64,000 bases of DNA from Kutzneria viridogrisea (lineage in GTDB: Bacteria; Actinomycetota; Actinomycetes; Mycobacteriales; Pseudonocardiaceae), in the NCBI GenBank assembly GCA_014138725.1, contig JACJID010000008.1:124001-188000 (forward strand), read 5' to 3'. Below the pieces are notes generated by a model. That model searched no databases and was not told the origin of the DNA. It saw only the letters and a list, made by a program, of their open reading frames with translations. A program made the translations under genes and the position numbers. Numbering within the stretch: position 1 is the stretch's first letter; each line of letters starts with the position of its first letter. Positions 8,882 through 64,000 of the stretch are shown one piece after another.

Positions 8882-9169
8882 GTGGCCGAGAAGTCCAAAG
8901 AGGAACACCGTAACGAGCCGGTTAACCCCCGGACCCCGCCGCCGCTGCCCAAGTCGCTGACCGACCCGGTGCCGGTGGTGGTGGCCGGTACCGCGCTGTT
9001 CCTGGTGGCCTTCCTCGTGCTGTTGGTCACCGGCGCACCCCAGCTGTGGACCTACTCCTGCCTGGCCGGTGTCGTGCTGGGCTTCTCCGGTTACGCCGTG
9101 TTCCGATGGCAACGCGCGGCGGCCCGGCGCGGCGCCCGCGGCGCCCAGGAGGGCGACGGCCTGATCTGA
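8882..9169 (+). CDS. DUF2530 small membrane protein
   Basis: 95 aa from GTG 8882. A Pro-rich cytoplasmic N terminus with PPPLPKSLTDPVPVVVAGTA leads into two transmembrane helices (about residues 34-53 and 58-75), then FRWQRAAARRGARGAQEGDG, the typical DUF2530 ending. Function unknown; the family is confined to actinobacteria and matches Rv0879c of M. tuberculosis in type and place. There is no ribosome site before the GTG, and the 20-base divergent gap suggests a leaderless transcript. A 21-base-period repeat array begins 26 bases after its stop. Confidence 0.82.
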   Translation: MAEKSKEEHRNEPVNPRTPPPLPKSLTDPVPVVVAGTALFLVAFLVLLVTGAPQLWTYSCLAGVVLGFSGYAVFRWQRAAARRGARGAQEGDGLI

Positions 9170-9194
9170 GCCATTGCCGCCCTGCTGTCCCCGC

Positions 9195-9327
9195 GAGTCC
9201 CGCCCAGCCGACGCCGAGTCCCACCTCGGGGCACGCGAATCCCGCTCGCAGGAGCATGAGTCCCGCGCTGGGGCACGCGAGTCCCGCCCAGCCGACGCCG
9301 AGTCCCGCCCACCGGAGCGCGAGTCCC
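9195..9327 (+). repeat. 21-base phased array, left arm (7 x GAGTCCC)
   Basis: Seven copies of GAGTCCC (one GAATCCC) start at 9195, 9216, 9237, 9258, 9279, 9300 and 9321: exactly 21 bases apart every time, usually within gcGAGTCCCgc. The sequence between copies varies. It fills the start of the 703-base intergenic region between the convergent DUF2530 and GHKL genes. The same word inverted makes the right arm at 9611-9868. Confidence 0.95.
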
Positions 9328-9351
9328 GCCCCAGCTTCGCCCACCCCGCGC

Positions 9352-9408
9352 CCCGCGTCTTCGCGCCGGTCCCGCGTCTTCGCGCCGGTCCCGCGTCTTC
9401 GCGCCGGT
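9352..9408. repeat. 19-base tandem triplet
   Basis: Three identical, contiguous copies of CCCGCGTCTTCGCGCCGGT at 9352-9370, 9371-9389 and 9390-9408, between the left GAGTCCC arm and the central palindrome. The third copy supplies part of the left side of the nested palindrome. Confidence 0.95.
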
Positions 9409-9492
9409 CTCTGGACCGCAGGCCGAAGATGATCACATCTGTCCAGTGATCATCTTCGGACAAGGGAAGAGACCGGACCCAAGCGAAGACGC
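9393..9492. other. Nested palindrome at the centre of the phased array
   Basis: Three nested inverted repeats share one centre near 9441: GCGTCTTCGC (9393-9402) with GCGAAGACGC (9483-9492); CCGGTCTCT (9404-9412) with AGAGACCGG (9468-9476); CCGAAGATGATCAC (9423-9436) with GTGATCATCTTCGG (9446-9459). All pair perfectly. It could form a large cruciform or a bidirectional terminator, and it separates the two oppositely oriented arms. From 9493 to 9610 I see nothing recognisable. Confidence 0.9.
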
Positions 9493-9610
9493 CGCGCCCC
9501 GGAGGGGCGCCAAGAGCGAAGCGGGCACAGCATCCAGTACTGATGACCGTGCCCACTCGGGAGAGCCCGCATCAGTCCAGCGGGCGACCCGAGCAACAAC
9601 CCACGAGAAC

Positions 9611-9868
9611 CGGACTCACCGTCCCGTGAACGGGACCCACCCACCCCAGACCGGGACTCACCCACCAGAGCACGGGACTCACGCCCCTCAGAGCGGGACT
9701 CACCCCCCCAGAGCGGGACTCACCCACCGGAGCGCGGGACTCACGCCCCTCAGAGCGGGACTCACGTGCAGCAGCCCGGGACTCGCCACCCTCAGAACGG
9801 GACTCACGCTCCCCAGCCCGGGACTCGCCACCCTCAGAGCGGGACTCGCGTGCTGGAGAGCGGGACTC
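9611..9868 (-). repeat. 21-base phased array, right arm (13 x GGGACTC)
   Basis: Units start at 9611 (CGGACTC), 9632 (GGGACCC), then perfect GGGACTC at 9653, 9674, 9695, 9715, 9736, 9757, 9778, 9799, 9820, 9841 and 9862. All steps are 21 bases except one of 20 (9695 to 9715). Typical context is agcGGGACTCac or gc. The last unit ends 4 bases before the stop codon of the GHKL gene. Heptapeptide-coding ORFs run through it, but the 20-base step breaks the frame, so it is probably not coding. Confidence 0.95.
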
Positions 9869-9872
9869 GCGG

Positions 9873-12827
9873 TCAGGCGAGGTAGGTCGCGGCGGTGGGG
9901 TCGTCCAGCAGGGCGGCGAGCAGGTGCCGGTCGCCCCAGCGGTCCACGGCCCAGGCCAGGGCGCGGGACAGTCCGGCCGGGCTGTCCTCGGCGTGCACCA
10001 CCCCGTCCTCGGTGACCCACCACGTCACGCGGTGTTCAGCGCCACCTCGGCGCACCGACAGCTCGTCGTGCACCACGACCAGGCCCTCGGGCACCGGGCG
10101 GTCCAGCAGCTCGCTGGCGGCCACGACGGCACCGAGATCGGCCCAGGCCACGGGCAGGCCGTTGCCGATCAGCGCGTCGGCGTCCACCTCGTCGGCGGCC
10201 AGCGGCAGGTCGAGCAGTTCGGCCAGGGCCTCGGCGTCGTCCGGGTCGGCGGCGACGACCTGCTCCGGCGCGAAGGCCGCCAGCAGCCACGGCGAGTCCA
10301 GCACGACCGCGCCCTCACCGCTGACGACCCGCCCGGTGAGCACCCGCACCTCCTCCGGCAAGTCCACTTCGGACGGTTCGACCAGGCCACCGCGCACGGC
10401 CTCGGCGATGACGTGGTGCGCCCGCATGGCCACGCCGGGCGGCACGGCGCGGTCCGGGTCGGCCAGGCGGCGCAGCACGTCCGCGGTGTCGGCGGGACCG
10501 GTGGCGGTCAGCTCGGCGCGCACGCCGATGGCGGCGAGCAGGTCGGCACGCACACCCACGTCGGGGATCGGGTCGTACAGGCCGGTCAGCGCCTCGGCCG
10601 CGGGCAGCCGCCACTCGCGCGGGGCGGCACCGGCCAGCCGGGCGTTGCGCGCCAGCCACCAGCCCGTGTAGCCGCCCGCCCGGGTCACCGCCTGCCAGGT
10701 CTCGGGCTGCTCGGCGAGCAGGCGCAGGGCCTGCGGCCAGCGCTGGTCGTCGACCAGGTCCAGGTCGCGCACCCCGAGCAGTTCGGCGGGCGGGTTCAGG
10801 TCCCCGTCCACGGCCTGCCACCACAGCTCCTCGTCGGCCAGCTCGTGGTCCGGGCCGCCGGGCGACTCCTCGTAGACCACCACGAAGGAGTCGATCACCC
10901 CGACGGCGGCGAGCACCTCGGCGGGCCAGCGCCCGGCGAGTTCCTCGGCGAGCACGCCCACCGGGGCGTCCTTGCCGATCACCTCGGCGTCGAACACCTC
11001 GCGCAGCGGGCTGGCGGGCAGGATCAGCTCGTCGGCGTGCCGGAACTCGCCCTCGGTGTCGGGCAGCGCCAGGCTCGCCAGCCACGGCCGCTCCCCCCGC
11101 CGGGAGCCGGTGGACTCGGTCAGCCACAGCACGGTGTCCACCAGCGCGGTGGTGTCGAACCCGGACTCGGCGTCCTCCATGCTGCGCTCGACGGCGGTGC
11201 GCATGGCGTCGAGCAGGTCGGCGGGGCCCGCGTCCCTGGCGCCGAGACGGGCCAGCAGCGGGTGCACGGCCTCGGGGTGCGCGACCCGCAGCCCCATGAC
11301 GTCCATTGTGGACAGTGCGCCGATCGTCTCCTGGTCGAAGTCGGGCAGCAGCACGTCGCGCGGGCCGGTGACGGTGCGCCCGTCCACCAGCGGCACGGGC
11401 AGCCCGCCCAACTCCTCGCGGGCCGTGGCGTCCTGCTCGGCGACCGGGGCCAGCGCGGCGTAGAACCCGGCCCACCAGGCCGGTTCGCGGTCCTGGCCGG
11501 AGACCAGGGCGACCACCTCGGCGAGCCGGATCCGGGGCACCTCCAGTGCCGCCAGCTGCCGGGCGCAGGTCTGGTTGGACAGCTCCGCGGCGGCCAGGCC
11601 GTCGACGACCTCGGCGAGCAGCTCGGCCAGCTCGGGGGCGAGCACGTCGAGCACCCTGGCGCGGGCCGGGACGAGCAGGACGCCGTCCTCCTGGGCGGGC
11701 AGCCAGCTCGCGGCGCGGAGCTCGGCGGTGACCAGGGCGCGCAGCGTGCCGTCGACCTCGGACTTGGGGAAGTCGGGCACCGGCACCAGGGCGATGCGGT
11801 GCTCCGGGGCGAGGGCCAGCACCAACTGCACGAACGTTCGTGCGGCGTTGGCCAGCACCGCGTCGGTGGCCGGTCCGGGCAGCAGCCTGCGCCGGGAGGA
11901 CTCCACCGGCACGCTGCCCAGCAACCGGGCGGGCAGGGACAGTCGTTCGTCGGTGGGGGTGGGCGCGTGCAGCACGTCCTCGCCCAGCGGCTGCGGCACG
12001 CCGTGCTCGTCCACCGGGACGGCCCAGCAGATCGTCCACTCAGGACGTTCGCGGGCCTCGATGCCCAGGCCCTCGACGGCATCGGCGTCCAGTTCGCCGG
12101 AGGCACGGCACAGCAGCCAGCGCGCCTGCCCGGTGGGCCCGTGCACGAGCACGACCCCGTCCGCGCCGTCCTCGCGCCACCAGGCCTGCTCGCCGACCTC
12201 GATCCTGCTCAGCCCGGGCAGGGCCAGCAGCAGGTCCGGGGCCTCCACGGCGAACCCGGCCAGGAGGTCCTCGACCGACACCTCGGCGCGCAGCGGCAGC
12301 CGCACCTCGGTGTCGAAGCCCTGCGGCGGCGCGGGCTCGTCCTCGGGCAGGTCCCAGGCCAGGCGCAGCACCGGCACGGCGCCACCGCGCTCGGCGACCC
12401 CGGGCAGGTCGGCGGCGGCCTGCCGGGTGCGCTCGGCGGAGAAGGCGACCCCGCCGCTGGTGGACACCACGCGCGGGGCCTCGGTGACGGCCAGCACGGC
12501 GGCGAAGCCCACGCCGAACTGTCCGACCGTTCGTGCACCGCGCTTGGCGGAGGCCCGTAACGAGGCGAGCGCGGCCACGCCCTCGGCGGTCAGCGGGGCG
12601 CCGGTGTTGGCCGCGCGCAGCTCACCGTCCACAACGGACAGTCGCAGCGTTCCGCCGGTGCCCGCGGCGTCGGCGGCGTTCTGGGCCAGCTCCACGAGCA
12701 GCCGGTCCCGGTAGCCGCCGAGCCGGAGGTCCTCCTCGGCGTTGGCGTCCTCGCGGAACCTGGTCGGCGAACCGCGCCAGGCCTCCAGCACGGACGTGCG
12801 CAGCTCAGCGATGCCGAAGTCGGTCAC
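9873..12827 (-). CDS. Sacsin-like GHKL ATPase-domain protein, large
   Basis: 984 aa from GTG 12827, which has AGGAG upstream. Residues ~1-200 carry a Hsp90/sacsin-type GHKL ATP-binding fold: DRLLVELAQNAADAAG (N box), LRAANTGAPLTAEGVAAL (G1 region, where the usual Asp of DxGxG is replaced) and VGQFGVGFAAVLAV (G2). The remaining ~780 residues are acidic, Leu/Ala-rich and unlike any enzyme I recognise; there are no membrane segments. Such proteins are common single genes in actinobacteria, of unknown, possibly chaperone-like, function. It is 40 bases downstream of the DUF3027 gene on the same strand and probably co-transcribed. A GCACGAACGTTCGTGC palindrome lies inside it at 11828. Confidence 0.75.
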   Translation of the reverse strand: MTDFGIAELRTSVLEAWRGSPTRFREDANAEEDLRLGGYRDRLLVELAQNAADAAGTGGTLRLSVVDGELRAANTGAPLTAEGVAALASLRASAKRGARTVGQFGVGFAAVLAVTEAPRVVSTSGGVAFSAERTRQAAADLPGVAERGGAVPVLRLAWDLPEDEPAPPQGFDTEVRLPLRAEVSVEDLLAGFAVEAPDLLLALPGLSRIEVGEQAWWREDGADGVVLVHGPTGQARWLLCRASGELDADAVEGLGIEARERPEWTICWAVPVDEHGVPQPLGEDVLHAPTPTDERLSLPARLLGSVPVESSRRRLLPGPATDAVLANAARTFVQLVLALAPEHRIALVPVPDFPKSEVDGTLRALVTAELRAASWLPAQEDGVLLVPARARVLDVLAPELAELLAEVVDGLAAAELSNQTCARQLAALEVPRIRLAEVVALVSGQDREPAWWAGFYAALAPVAEQDATAREELGGLPVPLVDGRTVTGPRDVLLPDFDQETIGALSTMDVMGLRVAHPEAVHPLLARLGARDAGPADLLDAMRTAVERSMEDAESGFDTTALVDTVLWLTESTGSRRGERPWLASLALPDTEGEFRHADELILPASPLREVFDAEVIGKDAPVGVLAEELAGRWPAEVLAAVGVIDSFVVVYEESPGGPDHELADEELWWQAVDGDLNPPAELLGVRDLDLVDDQRWPQALRLLAEQPETWQAVTRAGGYTGWWLARNARLAGAAPREWRLPAAEALTGLYDPIPDVGVRADLLAAIGVRAELTATGPADTADVLRRLADPDRAVPPGVAMRAHHVIAEAVRGGLVEPSEVDLPEEVRVLTGRVVSGEGAVVLDSPWLLAAFAPEQVVAADPDDAEALAELLDLPLAADEVDADALIGNGLPVAWADLGAVVAASELLDRPVPEGLVVVHDELSVRRGGAEHRVTWWVTEDGVVHAEDSPAGLSRALAWAVDRWGDRHLLAALLDDPTAATYLA

Positions 12828-50005: not shown

Positions 50006-52246
50006 ATGGCCGGCCTCTCACTCGCGGACTGGTTGCGCGCACAGGACGACGACACGCTCGTCGCGCTGCTGCGCGCCCGCCCCGACCTCGCGACCCCCGC
50101 CCCCGCCGACACCGCCGTGTTGGCCACCAGGGCGGGCATCAGGGCGTCAGTGGCCAGGGCCTGCGAGGACCTGGACACCTTCACGCTCACCGTGCTGGAG
50201 GCGCTGCTGGTGCTGGACGCGGACACGGCGCCGACAACCGCACGAACGGTCGTGCAGTTGTTCTCCGGCGAGGCCCCCGCGACCAGGGTGAACGCGGCGA
50301 TCAAGGCGCTGCGCACCCGCGCGCTGGCCTGGGGCGGCGACGGGGAGCTGTCGGTGCTGCCCGCGGCCAGGGAGGTGGCCCCGCAGTTCCCCGGCGGCCT
50401 GGGCCGCTCGGTGCCCGCACTGGCCGACACCGACCTGGACGCGGTGCTGGCCGGGCTGGCCGAGCCCGACCGCAGGCTGCTCGCCACGCTGGCGGCGGGA
50501 CCGCCGATCGGCAAGACCAGGGACGCGGGCCAGGTGGTGCCGCTGGAGCGGGCGAGCAACCCGGTGCAGCGCATGCTGGCGATGGGCCTGCTGCTGCGCA
50601 GGGACGACGAGACCGTGGAGCTGCCGCGCGAGGTGGGGCTGGCCGTCCGGGGCAAGCGTCCACTGGGGACCGTCCAGGTCAAGGAACCGGCGCTGACAAC
50701 GACTTCGCGCGGCCAGTCCACTGCGGACTCGATCGGCGCTGGTGAGGCGCTGGAGGTGGTGCGGCACTGCGAGGCGCTGCTGCGGCTGTGGTCGGAGGAG
50801 CCCGCCCCGGTGCTACGGGCGGGCGGCATCGGCGTGCGGGAGCTGCGCAGGCTGGCCAAGGCGCTGGACGTGGACGAGGCGCGGGCCGCCCTGCTGGCCG
50901 AGCTGGTGGTCGGCGCCGGGCTGGCCGCCGACAGCGAGGGCAGCGAGCCGGAGTGGGTGCCGACCACGCTCACCGACAACTGGCTCGTCGCCGCGCCCGA
51001 GCAGCGCTGGGCCACGCTGGCGGCGGCCTGGCTGGACCTGCCCCGGCTGCCGGGACTGGTCGGCACGCGTGACGAACGCGACAAGCCGATCGGGCCGCTG
51101 ACCGACGAGCTGCGCAGGCCGCTGGCGCCCCGTGAGCGCCGCCGGGTGCTGGAGGCGCTGGCCGAGCTGCCGGGTGGCACGAGCGTGGCCGACCCGGACC
51201 AGGTGGCCGCCGTGCTCGCCTGGCGGGCGCCCCGGCGCGGCGGCAGGCTGCGCGACGAGCTGGTGCGCTGGACCTACGCCGAGGCAACCGTGCTCGGGCT
51301 GATGGCGGTCGGGGCCGTGACCACGGCGGCGCGGACCCTGCTGGCCGAGGGCCCGGCGATGGCCGCCAAGCGGATGGCCGAGGCCATGCCCGAGCCGCTG
51401 GACCACGTGCTGGTGCAGGCCGATCTGACCGTGGTGGCGCCCGGCCCGTTGGAGGCGGGGCTGGCCGCGGACATGGCGTTGGTGGCCGACGTGGAGTCCG
51501 CGGGCGGTGCGACGGTGTACCGGGTGGGCGAGGCCAGCGTGCGGCGGGCACTGGACGCCGGGCGCACCGCCACCGAACTGCACGAGCTGTTCACCACCCG
51601 GTCCAGGACGCCGGTGCCGCAGTCGCTGAGCTACCTGATCGACGACGTGGCCCGCAGGCACGGCAGGCTGCGCGGCGGGGCCGCGGGCTCGTTCCTGCGC
51701 TGCGACGATCCGGTGCTGATCAGCGAGGTGCTGGCCAGCGCGGCGGCGGTCCAGCTGGAGCTGCGCAGGATCGCGCCGACCGTCCTGGTCAGCCCGCTGG
51801 CGCTGGTCGAGGTGCTGGACGGCCTGCGGGTCGCGGGCTTCTCACCGGCCGCGGAGAGCGCCGACGGCACGGTGCTGGACCTGCGCCCGCCGGGCCGGCG
51901 GGTCCCGGCCAAGGCCAAGCCGCGCAGGCAGGCCCCTGCGGGCGCGATCGGTGAGGACCAGCTCGCCGGGTTGCTGGAGCAGCTGCGGGCCGGTGACCGG
52001 GCGGCTGCCACGCCGAGGGGCACCGCCGTGCCCGCCACGCTGGAGCTGCTGCGGGCCGCGGCCGAACAGGGCCGCAGCGTGTGGCTGGGCTTCGTGGACT
52101 CACGCGGGGTGGCCAGCCAGCGCGTGGTGCAGCCGGTGTCGGTGGCCGGTGGCGTGCTGGAGGGCGTGGACCGCTCGGCGGGCCAGGTGCGGCGCTACCC
52201 GGTGCACCTGATCACCTCGGCCGCCCTGGTCGACGAGGACCGCTGA
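50006..52246 (+). CDS. Helicase-associated (XPB/Ssl2-like) domain protein
   Basis: 746 aa from ATG 50006 (no strong ribosome site; an in-frame ATG at 49964 is weaker). The N terminus, [28 protein letters not shown], is typical of Rv0862c homologues. It has a central winged-helix-rich region and, from about residue 500, a domain resembling the N-terminal region of XPB/Ssl2 helicases ([25 protein letters not shown], then [17 protein letters not shown]-like text). There are no Walker motifs, so it is not a helicase itself. The C terminus ([23 protein letters not shown]) resembles a WYL-like fold. Its partner in M. tuberculosis is the adjacent XPB (Rv0861c); here XPB is 9 kb away, behind the conservon. 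A phased array starts 4 bases after its stop. Confidence 0.85.
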
Positions 52247-52249
52247 GGC

Positions 52250-52404
52250 GGGACTCAGGTCCCCGGAGAGCGGGACTCACGCGCCCCAGAGCGGGACTCG
52301 CGTGCGACAGGACGGGACTCACGCGCCCCAGGACGGGACTCGCGTGCGACAGAGCGGGACTCGCCGCAAGCACGGCGAGTCCCGCTCTGGGGCGGTCGAA
52401 TCCC
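52250..52404. repeat. 21-base phased array 2 (6 x GGGACTC then 2 inverted)
   Basis: GGGACTC starts at 52250, 52272, 52293, 52314, 52335 and 52356; then the inverted word GAGTCCC at 52377 and GAATCCC at 52398. All steps are 21 except the first (22), and the phase continues across the inversion. It fills the whole gap between the helicase-associated gene and cvnD (convergent), with the last unit ending 2 bases before the cvnD stop. Confidence 0.95.
52351..52388. terminator. 16-base-stem hairpin at the inversion point of array 2
   Basis: AGAGCGGGACTCGCCG (52351-52366), loop CAAGCA, CGGCGAGTCCCGCTCT (52373-52388). The stem is perfect and is built from the two facing array units. It is a plausible bidirectional terminator for the two convergent genes. 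Confidence 0.75.
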
Positions 52405-52406
52405 GG

Positions 52407-53003
52407 TCAGCCCGCGCGGACCGACATCCACTGGCGCATGGCGTGTTCCACCAGCGTGATCAGTGTCTGCTTGGTCGACTCCCGGTTGCGCGCGTCACAG
52501 GTGACGATCGGCACCGACTGGTCGATGGTCAGCGCCTCGCGCACGTCGTCGATGCGGTGGTGCAGCATCCCGTCGAAGCAGTTGACCGCCACCACGTAGG
52601 GCAGCTGCCGGTCGTCGAAGAAGTCGATCGAGGCGAAGGCATCGGCCAGCCGCCGCGTGTCCACCAGCACGACCGCACCGATCGCGCCGCGGACCAGGTC
52701 GTCCCACATGAACCAGAACCGGTGCTGTCCGGGCGTGCCGAACAGGTACAGGATCAGGTCGCTGTCCAGGGACACGCGGCCGAAGTCCATCGCGACCGTG
52801 GTGGTGACCTTGTTCGGCGTCGCCGACAGGTCGTCGACGCCGAGGCTGGCCTCGGTCATCACCGCCTCCGTCGTCAACGGAACGATCTCCGACACCGAAC
52901 CCACGAACGTCGTCTTGCCCACACCGAACCCACCGGCCACCACGATCTTGGCCGAGGTGGTCGCCTGCCTGGCGATCTGGGGACTAGAGCCTGCGGAGCC
53001 CAC
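52407..53003 (-). CDS. cvnD: Conservon GTPase CvnD
   Basis: 198 aa from GTG 53003. Small Ras/Rab-like GTPase: P-loop VVAGGFGVGKTTFVGS near residue 22, switch region with TTTVAMDFGRV near 68, G3 YLFGTPGQHRFWFMWDDL near 87, and VNCFDG near 141 in the N/TKxD position. It overlaps cvnC by 20 bases. In Streptomyces conservons CvnA-D form a membrane complex resembling a G-protein-coupled receptor system that influences development and antibiotic production. Array 2 lies directly downstream. Confidence 0.93.
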   Translation of the reverse strand: MGSAGSSPQIARQATTSAKIVVAGGFGVGKTTFVGSVSEIVPLTTEAVMTEASLGVDDLSATPNKVTTTVAMDFGRVSLDSDLILYLFGTPGQHRFWFMWDDLVRGAIGAVVLVDTRRLADAFASIDFFDDRQLPYVVAVNCFDGMLHHRIDDVREALTIDQSVPIVTCDARNRESTKQTLITLVEHAMRQWMSVRAG

Positions 53004-63835: not shown

Positions 63836-63897
63836 CCCGATACGGCGGCACCGGTCGGTCAGCGGCCCGGGACGTGTACCGGTCGCGGCAACGGCGC

Positions 63898-64000
63898 GTG
63901 TCGGACGTTCCGGTACCGCGTGTCGGCGCTCCCGGTACGGCGTGTCCCGCCCTGGCACACGCGAGTCCCGCTCTCCTGCGCGCGAGTCCGGCCCAGCCGA
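63898..64000 (+). repeat. Phased array 3, running off the window
   Basis: After menC: GTGTCGG at 63898 and 63920, GTGTCCC at 63942, GAGTCCC at 63963, GAGTCCG at 63984; steps 22, 22, 21, 21. The word drifts from degenerate to the array 1/2 consensus from left to right, and the array continues beyond 64000. Confidence 0.85.

Follow-up and report, generated by a model that had tools for sequence, protein, structure and literature searches.

A dispersed 21-bp repeat with helical phasing lies at gene ends in Kutzneria viridogrisea

Iterons and partition centromeres are built of direct repeats of about 20 bp set at helical turns, each repeat being bound by one protein. In Streptomyces, the small protein BldC forms multimers on head-to-tail direct repeats; its sites are AT-rich, follow another spacing and lie in promoters. 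As for dispersed repeats, REPs occupy convergent and tandem gaps, and in the two genomes charted in one study (PMC3733652) most of them lie no more than 20 bp from the 3' end of a convergent gene. REPs have also been proposed to be mobile. Here we characterize arrays of the word GGGACTC, and of its complement GAGTCCC, in the genome of K. viridogrisea.

The window analysed was a 64,000-nucleotide stretch of this genome, in which 32 of the words were observed against 14.7 expected, a number reached in none of 100 shuffles. Its main array consists of two arms. The left arm (9195..9327, with GGGACTC on the minus strand, period 21) has exact GAGTCCC words starting at 9195, 9216, 9258, 9279, 9300 and 9321, and a one-mismatch GAATCCC at 9237. 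The first-pass annotation, which was made from the letters of the window, had listed seven GAGTCCC units; seven words are in place, six of them exact and one degenerate. The right arm (9611..9868, plus strand) has 11 exact GGGACTC words starting at 9653, 9674, 9695, 9715, 9736, 9757, 9778, 9799, 9820, 9841 and 9862, preceded by the degenerate CGGACTC at 9611 and GGGACCC at 9632. These are the thirteen units, two degenerate, that had been counted, and all steps are of 21 bp except the single 20-bp step from 9695 to 9715, also as annotated. Upstream, a gene for a DUF2530 protein (8882..9169, plus strand) stops 25 bp before the left arm. Downstream, a large convergent gene with a weak sacsin-domain match below Pfam's cut-off (9873..12827, minus strand) stops 4 bp after the right arm. 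A second array, absent from the first-pass list, lies at 52250..52383 (plus strand) and has six exact GGGACTC words with one 22-bp step, followed by one GAGTCCC 21 bp after the last; it is flanked by convergent genes at 50006-52246 (plus) and 52407-53003 (minus). Both arrays of the window thus lie between convergent genes, their arms being separated by 3-44 bp from the stop codons on either side, and the four neighbour genes match DUF2530, sacsin (below the cut-off), Helicase_C_3 and ATP_bind_1.

The 21-base spacing read from this one locus proved to be enriched throughout the genome. Specifically, GGGACTC-N14-GGGACTC occurred as 574 + 495 = 1069 pairs in 10.25 Mb (11 contigs), whereas the reversed control gave 0. 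An evenly drawn sample (60 stretches, each of 20 kb) contained 306 words versus 67 for the reversed word, and the same-strand distances near 21 comprised 114 at 21, 2 at 20, 1 at 22 and 1 at 23. The sample held 33 array clusters, which extrapolates to ~280 genome-wide. In 2.46 Mb, made up of 120 stretches (10 of them picked for holding arrays) and the window, 336 of the 352 same-strand neighbours within 30 bp were exactly 21 apart. Higher-order repeats of 42 or 84 bp were present in some arrays. Another word, GTGTCGG, defines a second family, whose arrays have period 22 (64 neighbours at that distance) and lie at 63895-63946 in the window and elsewhere in the genome; such a period drifts slowly off the 10.5-bp helix. 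The 113 placed copies of its ten-base form lay in convergent gaps (45), tandem gaps (26) and called genes (42), and none was in a divergent gap.

We profiled the repeat unit from 321 distinct units and obtained the consensus GGGACTC R C S Y N C C S S W G R S C, which is not self-complementary. Words flanked on both sides by exact words were themselves exact in 145 of 168 cases, each base being kept at 94-99%. The bases between the words had been described as variable, and 199 of 230 spacers between exact words were indeed distinct. Nevertheless, several unit positions were constrained, namely 8 (A/G), 9 (C, 85%), 13 (C, 95%), 16 (C/G, 97%), 17 (A/T, 97%), 18 (G, 81%) and 21 (C, 99%). Word and period are therefore kept, as had been claimed, while the claim that only these are kept was too strong, since the 14-base spacer is constrained as well. 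Adjacent spacers were 59% identical versus 54% between loci, and spacers four units apart were more alike (0.765, n=42). With units differing to this extent, the view that the array is not a slipped minisatellite, in which whole 21-base units would be identical, is borne out.

To place the arrays relative to genes, we ran an in-house gene caller on the window and 80 stretches, 10 of which had been picked for arrays (81 sources), and located 74 arms with at least two exact words. Four of the 74 arms were within called genes; the rest, stretch-end arms excepted, lay in 47 gaps, of which 27 were convergent, 19 tandem and 1 divergent. When gaps of at least 60 bp were considered, arrays were present in 26 of 128 convergent, 19 of 385 tandem and 1 of 223 divergent gaps, and one further array was in a 55-bp convergent gap. 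In tandem gaps, the median distance of the array was 15 bp to the stop upstream and 152 bp to the following start, and GGGACTC was on the sense strand in 7 of 19. Arms with at least two exact words were of a single direction in 34 of the 47 gaps; when single opposite words were counted too, 17 of the 33 even-sample clusters were one-directional. A similar tally for relatives used 47 loci fetched for holding a word pair, with 7 locus-end arms set aside. The 58 arms placed were 35 tandem, 23 convergent and 0 divergent, at a median of ~26 bp to the nearest stop (range -15 to 644); note that at least three of these arms were counted on both strands, as the loose core used also reads backwards. A coding function was considered and rejected: the arrays follow stop codons, only 4 of 74 arms were called as genes, and steps of 20 or 22 bp break the frame. 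Placement alone cannot separate function from tolerance, because REPs show the same placement.

The first-pass annotation had reasoned that every word faces the same side of the helix. If words sit on one helix face, arms of opposite orientation must also be in phase, which a tandem-repeat mechanism does not demand; the inversions thus provided an independent test that the annotation had not proposed. Designating GAGTCCC as '<' and GGGACTC as '>', the '<' to '>' junctions between array words of up to 110 bp in the 2.46 Mb were 19, 28, 29, 29, 39, 40, 49, 50, 59, 60, 60, 70, 91, 101 and 102 bp, the longer junctions of 167 and 237 being left out. With the array filter dropped, a sixteenth sampled junction was found at 72, and R was 0.914. 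A whole-genome search for distances of 18-48, which had no array-membership filter and overlaps the sampled list, gave 29 matches, 4 of which were longer versions of a closer pair. The remaining 25 junctions were at 18, 19 (3), 28 (2), 29 (5), 30, 37, 38 (3), 39 (5) and 40 (4), and none was at 20-27, 31-36 or 41-48; the reversed control gave 1. At 10.5 bp, R for the 25 junctions was 0.886 (Rayleigh p ~3e-9), and pooling with the 9 sampled junctions at 49-102 gave p ~1.5e-12 with a best period of 10.35. The distances were thus quantised at ~10.4 bp, and the DNA between was mostly unrelated. Specifically, junction centres were unrelated at a 70% threshold save three that share GTGACTCAC, the centres of the four closest junctions (18-19) being too short for comparison. 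Removal of four junctions (the three with related centres and one odd one) left 21, with R 0.888 and p ~6e-8. As a further control, the letters of the word were permuted: R for GGGACTC (0.905, distinct distances) was higher than that for all 103 permuted words with at least 8 such neighbours (maximum 0.80, the top two R being frame-shifts of the same motif).

The phase was also found in relatives. Exact-word GAGTCCC-N-GGGACTC junctions were almost absent from 8 relatives (one each in 2 of the 8 genomes), and after they had proved scarce a looser core was applied, under two arm definitions, to the fetched loci. The looser definition gave nine '<' to '>' junctions at 31, 51, 52, 63, 73, 74, 84, 84 and 105 (R 0.95, p 3e-4), and the second, stricter one gave six at 21, 31, 51, 52, 84 and 84 (p 0.004); the two 84-bp junctions may be homologous. 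The lattice offset was ~7.6 in the K. viridogrisea genome versus ~10.2 in relatives. Junctions of the other kind, '>' to '<' (n=24), peaked at 21 (12 of 24) and 24 (6 of 24) with no single clean lattice (R at 10.5 = 0.64), and same-strand arm-to-arm distances out of the 21 register (n=14) showed no phase (R 0.36, p 0.16). The proposal that all words share one side of the helix accordingly passed this test, in that '<' to '>' inversions are phase-locked at 10.5 bp. In addition, we examined RNA folding in the 60 even stretches and the window. One-directional arrays showed no unusual fold compared with dinucleotide shuffles (17 arrays, mean z -0.27, both strands), whereas strong folding was seen in the two-directional ones (15 arrays, mean z -5.4), an unavoidable outcome for inverted repeats. 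Given the phase-locked '<' to '>' junctions and the one-directional arrays that lack an unusual RNA fold, it is highly probable that the constraint lies in the DNA helix.

The reading that we favour, with a probability of roughly 45%, is that each array, lying at a gene boundary, serves at the level of the DNA as a docking array for protein along one helix face and acts as a boundary of transcription units; the protein, its restriction to one face and the role as a boundary are what we infer from the sequence pattern. In this scheme, each 21-bp unit would be one putative binding site. Since the units come every two helical turns and flipped arms stay on the helical lattice, every site would be offered from the same side of the duplex, and a sequence-specific DNA-binding protein could sit side by side along that face. 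The resulting nucleoprotein stretch, directly after stop codons, would form an orientation-independent boundary between transcription units, either as a roadblock to polymerase leaving a gene or as an anchor for supercoiling from converging polymerases. Phase-locking across inversions with unrelated DNA between is hard to obtain unless the duplex is read from one side. Should a protein indeed occupy these hundreds of gene ends, the arrays would constitute a sequence-encoded chromatin boundary in bacteria and would bear on transcription termination and the handling of converging genes in high-GC actinomycetes, questions that become directly testable as the sites are known, abundant and deletable. 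More tentatively, the arrays may be chromosomal elements of a class not described before in bacteria. Such "boundary arrays" would be helix-phased and blind to orientation, and an actinobacterial protein dedicated to them would form a one-faced nucleoprotein strip behind hundreds of genes, at their 3' ends, and separate converging units; each lineage of the family would have its own word, and the sites would co-evolve with the protein.

The DNA between the two arms of the window array was analysed separately. The arms had been described as pointing in opposite directions about a central palindrome; the opposition of the arms was confirmed, while the palindrome belongs to a separate dispersed element and is not the centre of the array. 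The structured element was delimited to 9390..9596 (plus strand, core 9428-9454, right-hand limit approximate) from core copies, alignment and folding. Three tandem copies of a 19-bp repeat lie at 9352..9409 (plus strand), the last of which is the left stem of the element. Twenty copies of the core within 2 mismatches were found in the genome. When 12 element copies were aligned and folded, the loop ATCTGTCCA was nearly invariant and compensated changes were seen in 11 of 45 predicted pairs. A hub role for the palindrome was rejected: its core is present 20 times whereas the word pairs number 1069, and among the 12 copies inspected two had no word within 500 bp. An Rfam search over 9100-9900 gave a single chance-level match (E 4.3) and none credible for the window copy of the element. 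The element has the appearance of a structured RNA or a mobile element not described so far. A copy of the cassette of array plus element was found at C8:105072, 88% identical over 656 bp. In a global alignment of the two cassettes, the elements were identical at 243 of 244 positions, while arm spacers differed in 72 of 276 columns and words in 2 of 120; note that 116 of the 512 arm columns were gaps and the arms were unequal in length, so that the homology of the arms is uncertain. Because this copy sits in another convergent gap, tracts appear to move between arrays, the words staying while spacers change.

We surveyed the distribution of the word pair in related genomes, the tallies for order, genus and family including the K. 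viridogrisea genome. Any match was found in 15 of 150 genomes sampled from the order, mostly 1-2 per genome. In the family Pseudonocardiaceae, 96 of 390 genomes and 22 of 46 genera had matches, and ten genomes reached at least 28. Within the genus, 5 of 7 genomes had a match, the other six having 0-7 pairs versus 1069, and the 4 pairs in one of them (G150) derive from a 7-bp satellite. Named records contained at least 93 stretches with three words. Related arrays were patchy in Pseudonocardiaceae, being found in Amycolatopsis sp. RYN_118, A. thermalba, Prauserella endophytica, P. cavernicola and Pseudonocardia sp. TRM90224, and in the loci viewed their units had GGGACTC, GGAACTC, GCAACTC or GGGGCTC ahead of a frequent CTC(G/A)C core, at period 21. 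Amycolatopsis sp. RYN_118 also carries many similar copies of a compact hairpin element with two to three units per arm and 21- or 22-bp steps. Among 24 named loci viewed, 11 were outside the family: 6 were the (GGGACTC)n 7-bp satellite or close to it, and 5 were other tandem repeats, all actinobacterial and with unrelated spacers. In another relative (G320), 167 GGGACTC pairs were found at spacings of 15-31, and because only 9 of them were at exactly 21, this species may use another period.

At the level of the single locus, we compared the gap after the orthologous sacsin-like gene (70-80% identity) in six same-genus genomes. None of the six had such an array there, so that the array is not needed at this locus; DUF2530 was still near the orthologous gene in two of them. 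In one relative (G348, locus L286), about two units of another tandem repeat of 21 bp, GCCGTGTYCCCCRTTCCCGRC, lie in the gap beside the orthologous sacsin-like gene, which suggests a common period and position for words of other sequence. In three stretches (60 kb) of one sister species, a search for periodic 7-mers in non-coding DNA gave no clear 21-bp array. Two-unit hairpins were present at five loci of sister species. Among the matches listed, a literature search gave nothing on such repeats in Pseudonocardiaceae; it covered subscription titles thinly, so absence from print is not shown. The repeat and intergenic passages of the Kutzneria albida and Saccharothrix espanaensis genome papers mention no such repeats.

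The main rival to a docking array, possible if somewhat unlikely, is that the arrays are selfish or neutral interspersed repeats that persist only where they do no damage, directly behind stop codons. On this view, the lattice would arise as a side effect of recombination or repair in which units are added or inverted in helical register, and the need of the enzyme for the word would explain why the word is kept. The patchy expansion among same-genus genomes, the empty orthologous gaps, the apparent movement of cassettes (with the reservation on arm homology noted above) and the location pattern, which is that reported for REPs, are all consistent with this explanation. On the other hand, the units are not palindromic and the phase is common to other genera, and no enzyme that would lengthen an array in helical phase is known to us. 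Furthermore, PF01797 (Y1 transposase, including RAYTs, for REPs of the GTAG class) gave 0 matches in the K. viridogrisea genome and a short match in one (G152) of the 10 genomes searched, the positive control matching 5 of 14 known genomes; RAYT-driven mobility was rejected, as the genome lacks a PF01797 match. If the arrays are selfish after all, they would point to an as yet undescribed machinery that copies DNA in helical register.

A general topology factor, such as DNA gyrase or a nucleoid protein, could alternatively wrap the arrays, with phased A/T and flexible steps curling the DNA and absorbing positive supercoiling between converging genes. The enrichment was strongest in convergent gaps, and E. 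coli BIME-2 is reportedly cut by gyrase. A/T power in 32 long arms was 1.30 at 10.5 bp against 0.19 at 21. However, the 7-bp harmonic was as strong (1.57), and since masking the words lowered the 10.5-bp power to 0.32, below the 0.68 at 21, the word itself accounts for most of the A/T signal. Curvature under a wedge model was slightly greater than in shuffles for the 32 arms (end-to-end ratio, mean z -1.85); this gain is small and variable (sd 2.4), and intrinsic curvature as the sole cause was rejected because the signal is weak. In addition, the 8-base word is kept beyond what bendability needs. We therefore regard wrapping by a topology factor as improbable.

Still less probable are RNA-level 3' elements, in which opposed arms would form hairpin terminators or mRNA stabilisers. 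The strong folding of two-directional arrays, the tight hairpins formed by '>' to '<' junctions and the two-unit hairpins of sister species fit such a function, but strong folding of an inverted repeat is trivial, many arrays are one-directional by either count and fold like shuffles, and we know of no RNA rationale for a 10.5-bp lattice of loop lengths. RNA hairpins as a common property were rejected on the basis of the 17 one-directional arrays. A functionless, degenerate minisatellite grown by slippage is scarcely credible: the higher-order 42- and 84-bp repeats and the similarity of spacers four units apart are in its favour, but the contrast in conservation between word and spacer largely refutes it, and the phase across inversions is against it too.

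Taking a protein-docking array at gene boundaries as the preferred reading, we compared the arrays with described systems. They resemble REP/BIME elements in having many short, lineage-specific intergenic units per genome with clusters in both orientations, and in lying at gene 3' ends and rarely in divergent gaps (27 convergent, 19 tandem and 1 divergent; 23, 35 and 0 arms in relatives). Unlike REP/BIME elements, the 21-bp unit is not palindromic, its one-directional arrays have no hairpin fold, the profile has no GTAG or CGTC tag, which belongs to the REP definition, and the arrays run head to tail, helix-phased, for up to 10 or more units. They share with iterons and partition sites the direct repeats of ~20 bp at helical spacing, but the word pairs are dispersed, and the two window arrays adjoin ordinary genes with no rep or par gene; the suggestion that the array is iteron- or partition-like was thus given up in favour of dispersed intergenic elements at 3' ends. 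They share head-to-tail direct repeats with BldC sites and differ in being GC-rich and at 3' ends. The same seven letters occur in short tandem runs, (GGGACTC)n, in Xanthomonas sp. AmX2 and Microbulbifer litoralis (one locus each), which differ in having period 7 and no spacer; the 254 and 364 spacing-21 pairs of these two genomes probably reflect this 7-bp satellite. GAGTCCC also has what we take to be a resemblance to the tRNA T-arm, and an origin from it was set aside. A simple minisatellite is set apart from the arrays by words kept at 94-99% per base next to adjacent spacers hardly more alike than those of different loci, and a hairpin terminator by the lack of a stem-loop in every member. 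Because three of four REP features fail, the arrays are dispersed unlike iterons, and they are not a plain minisatellite, we file them as an intergenic interspersed repeat outside any named family.
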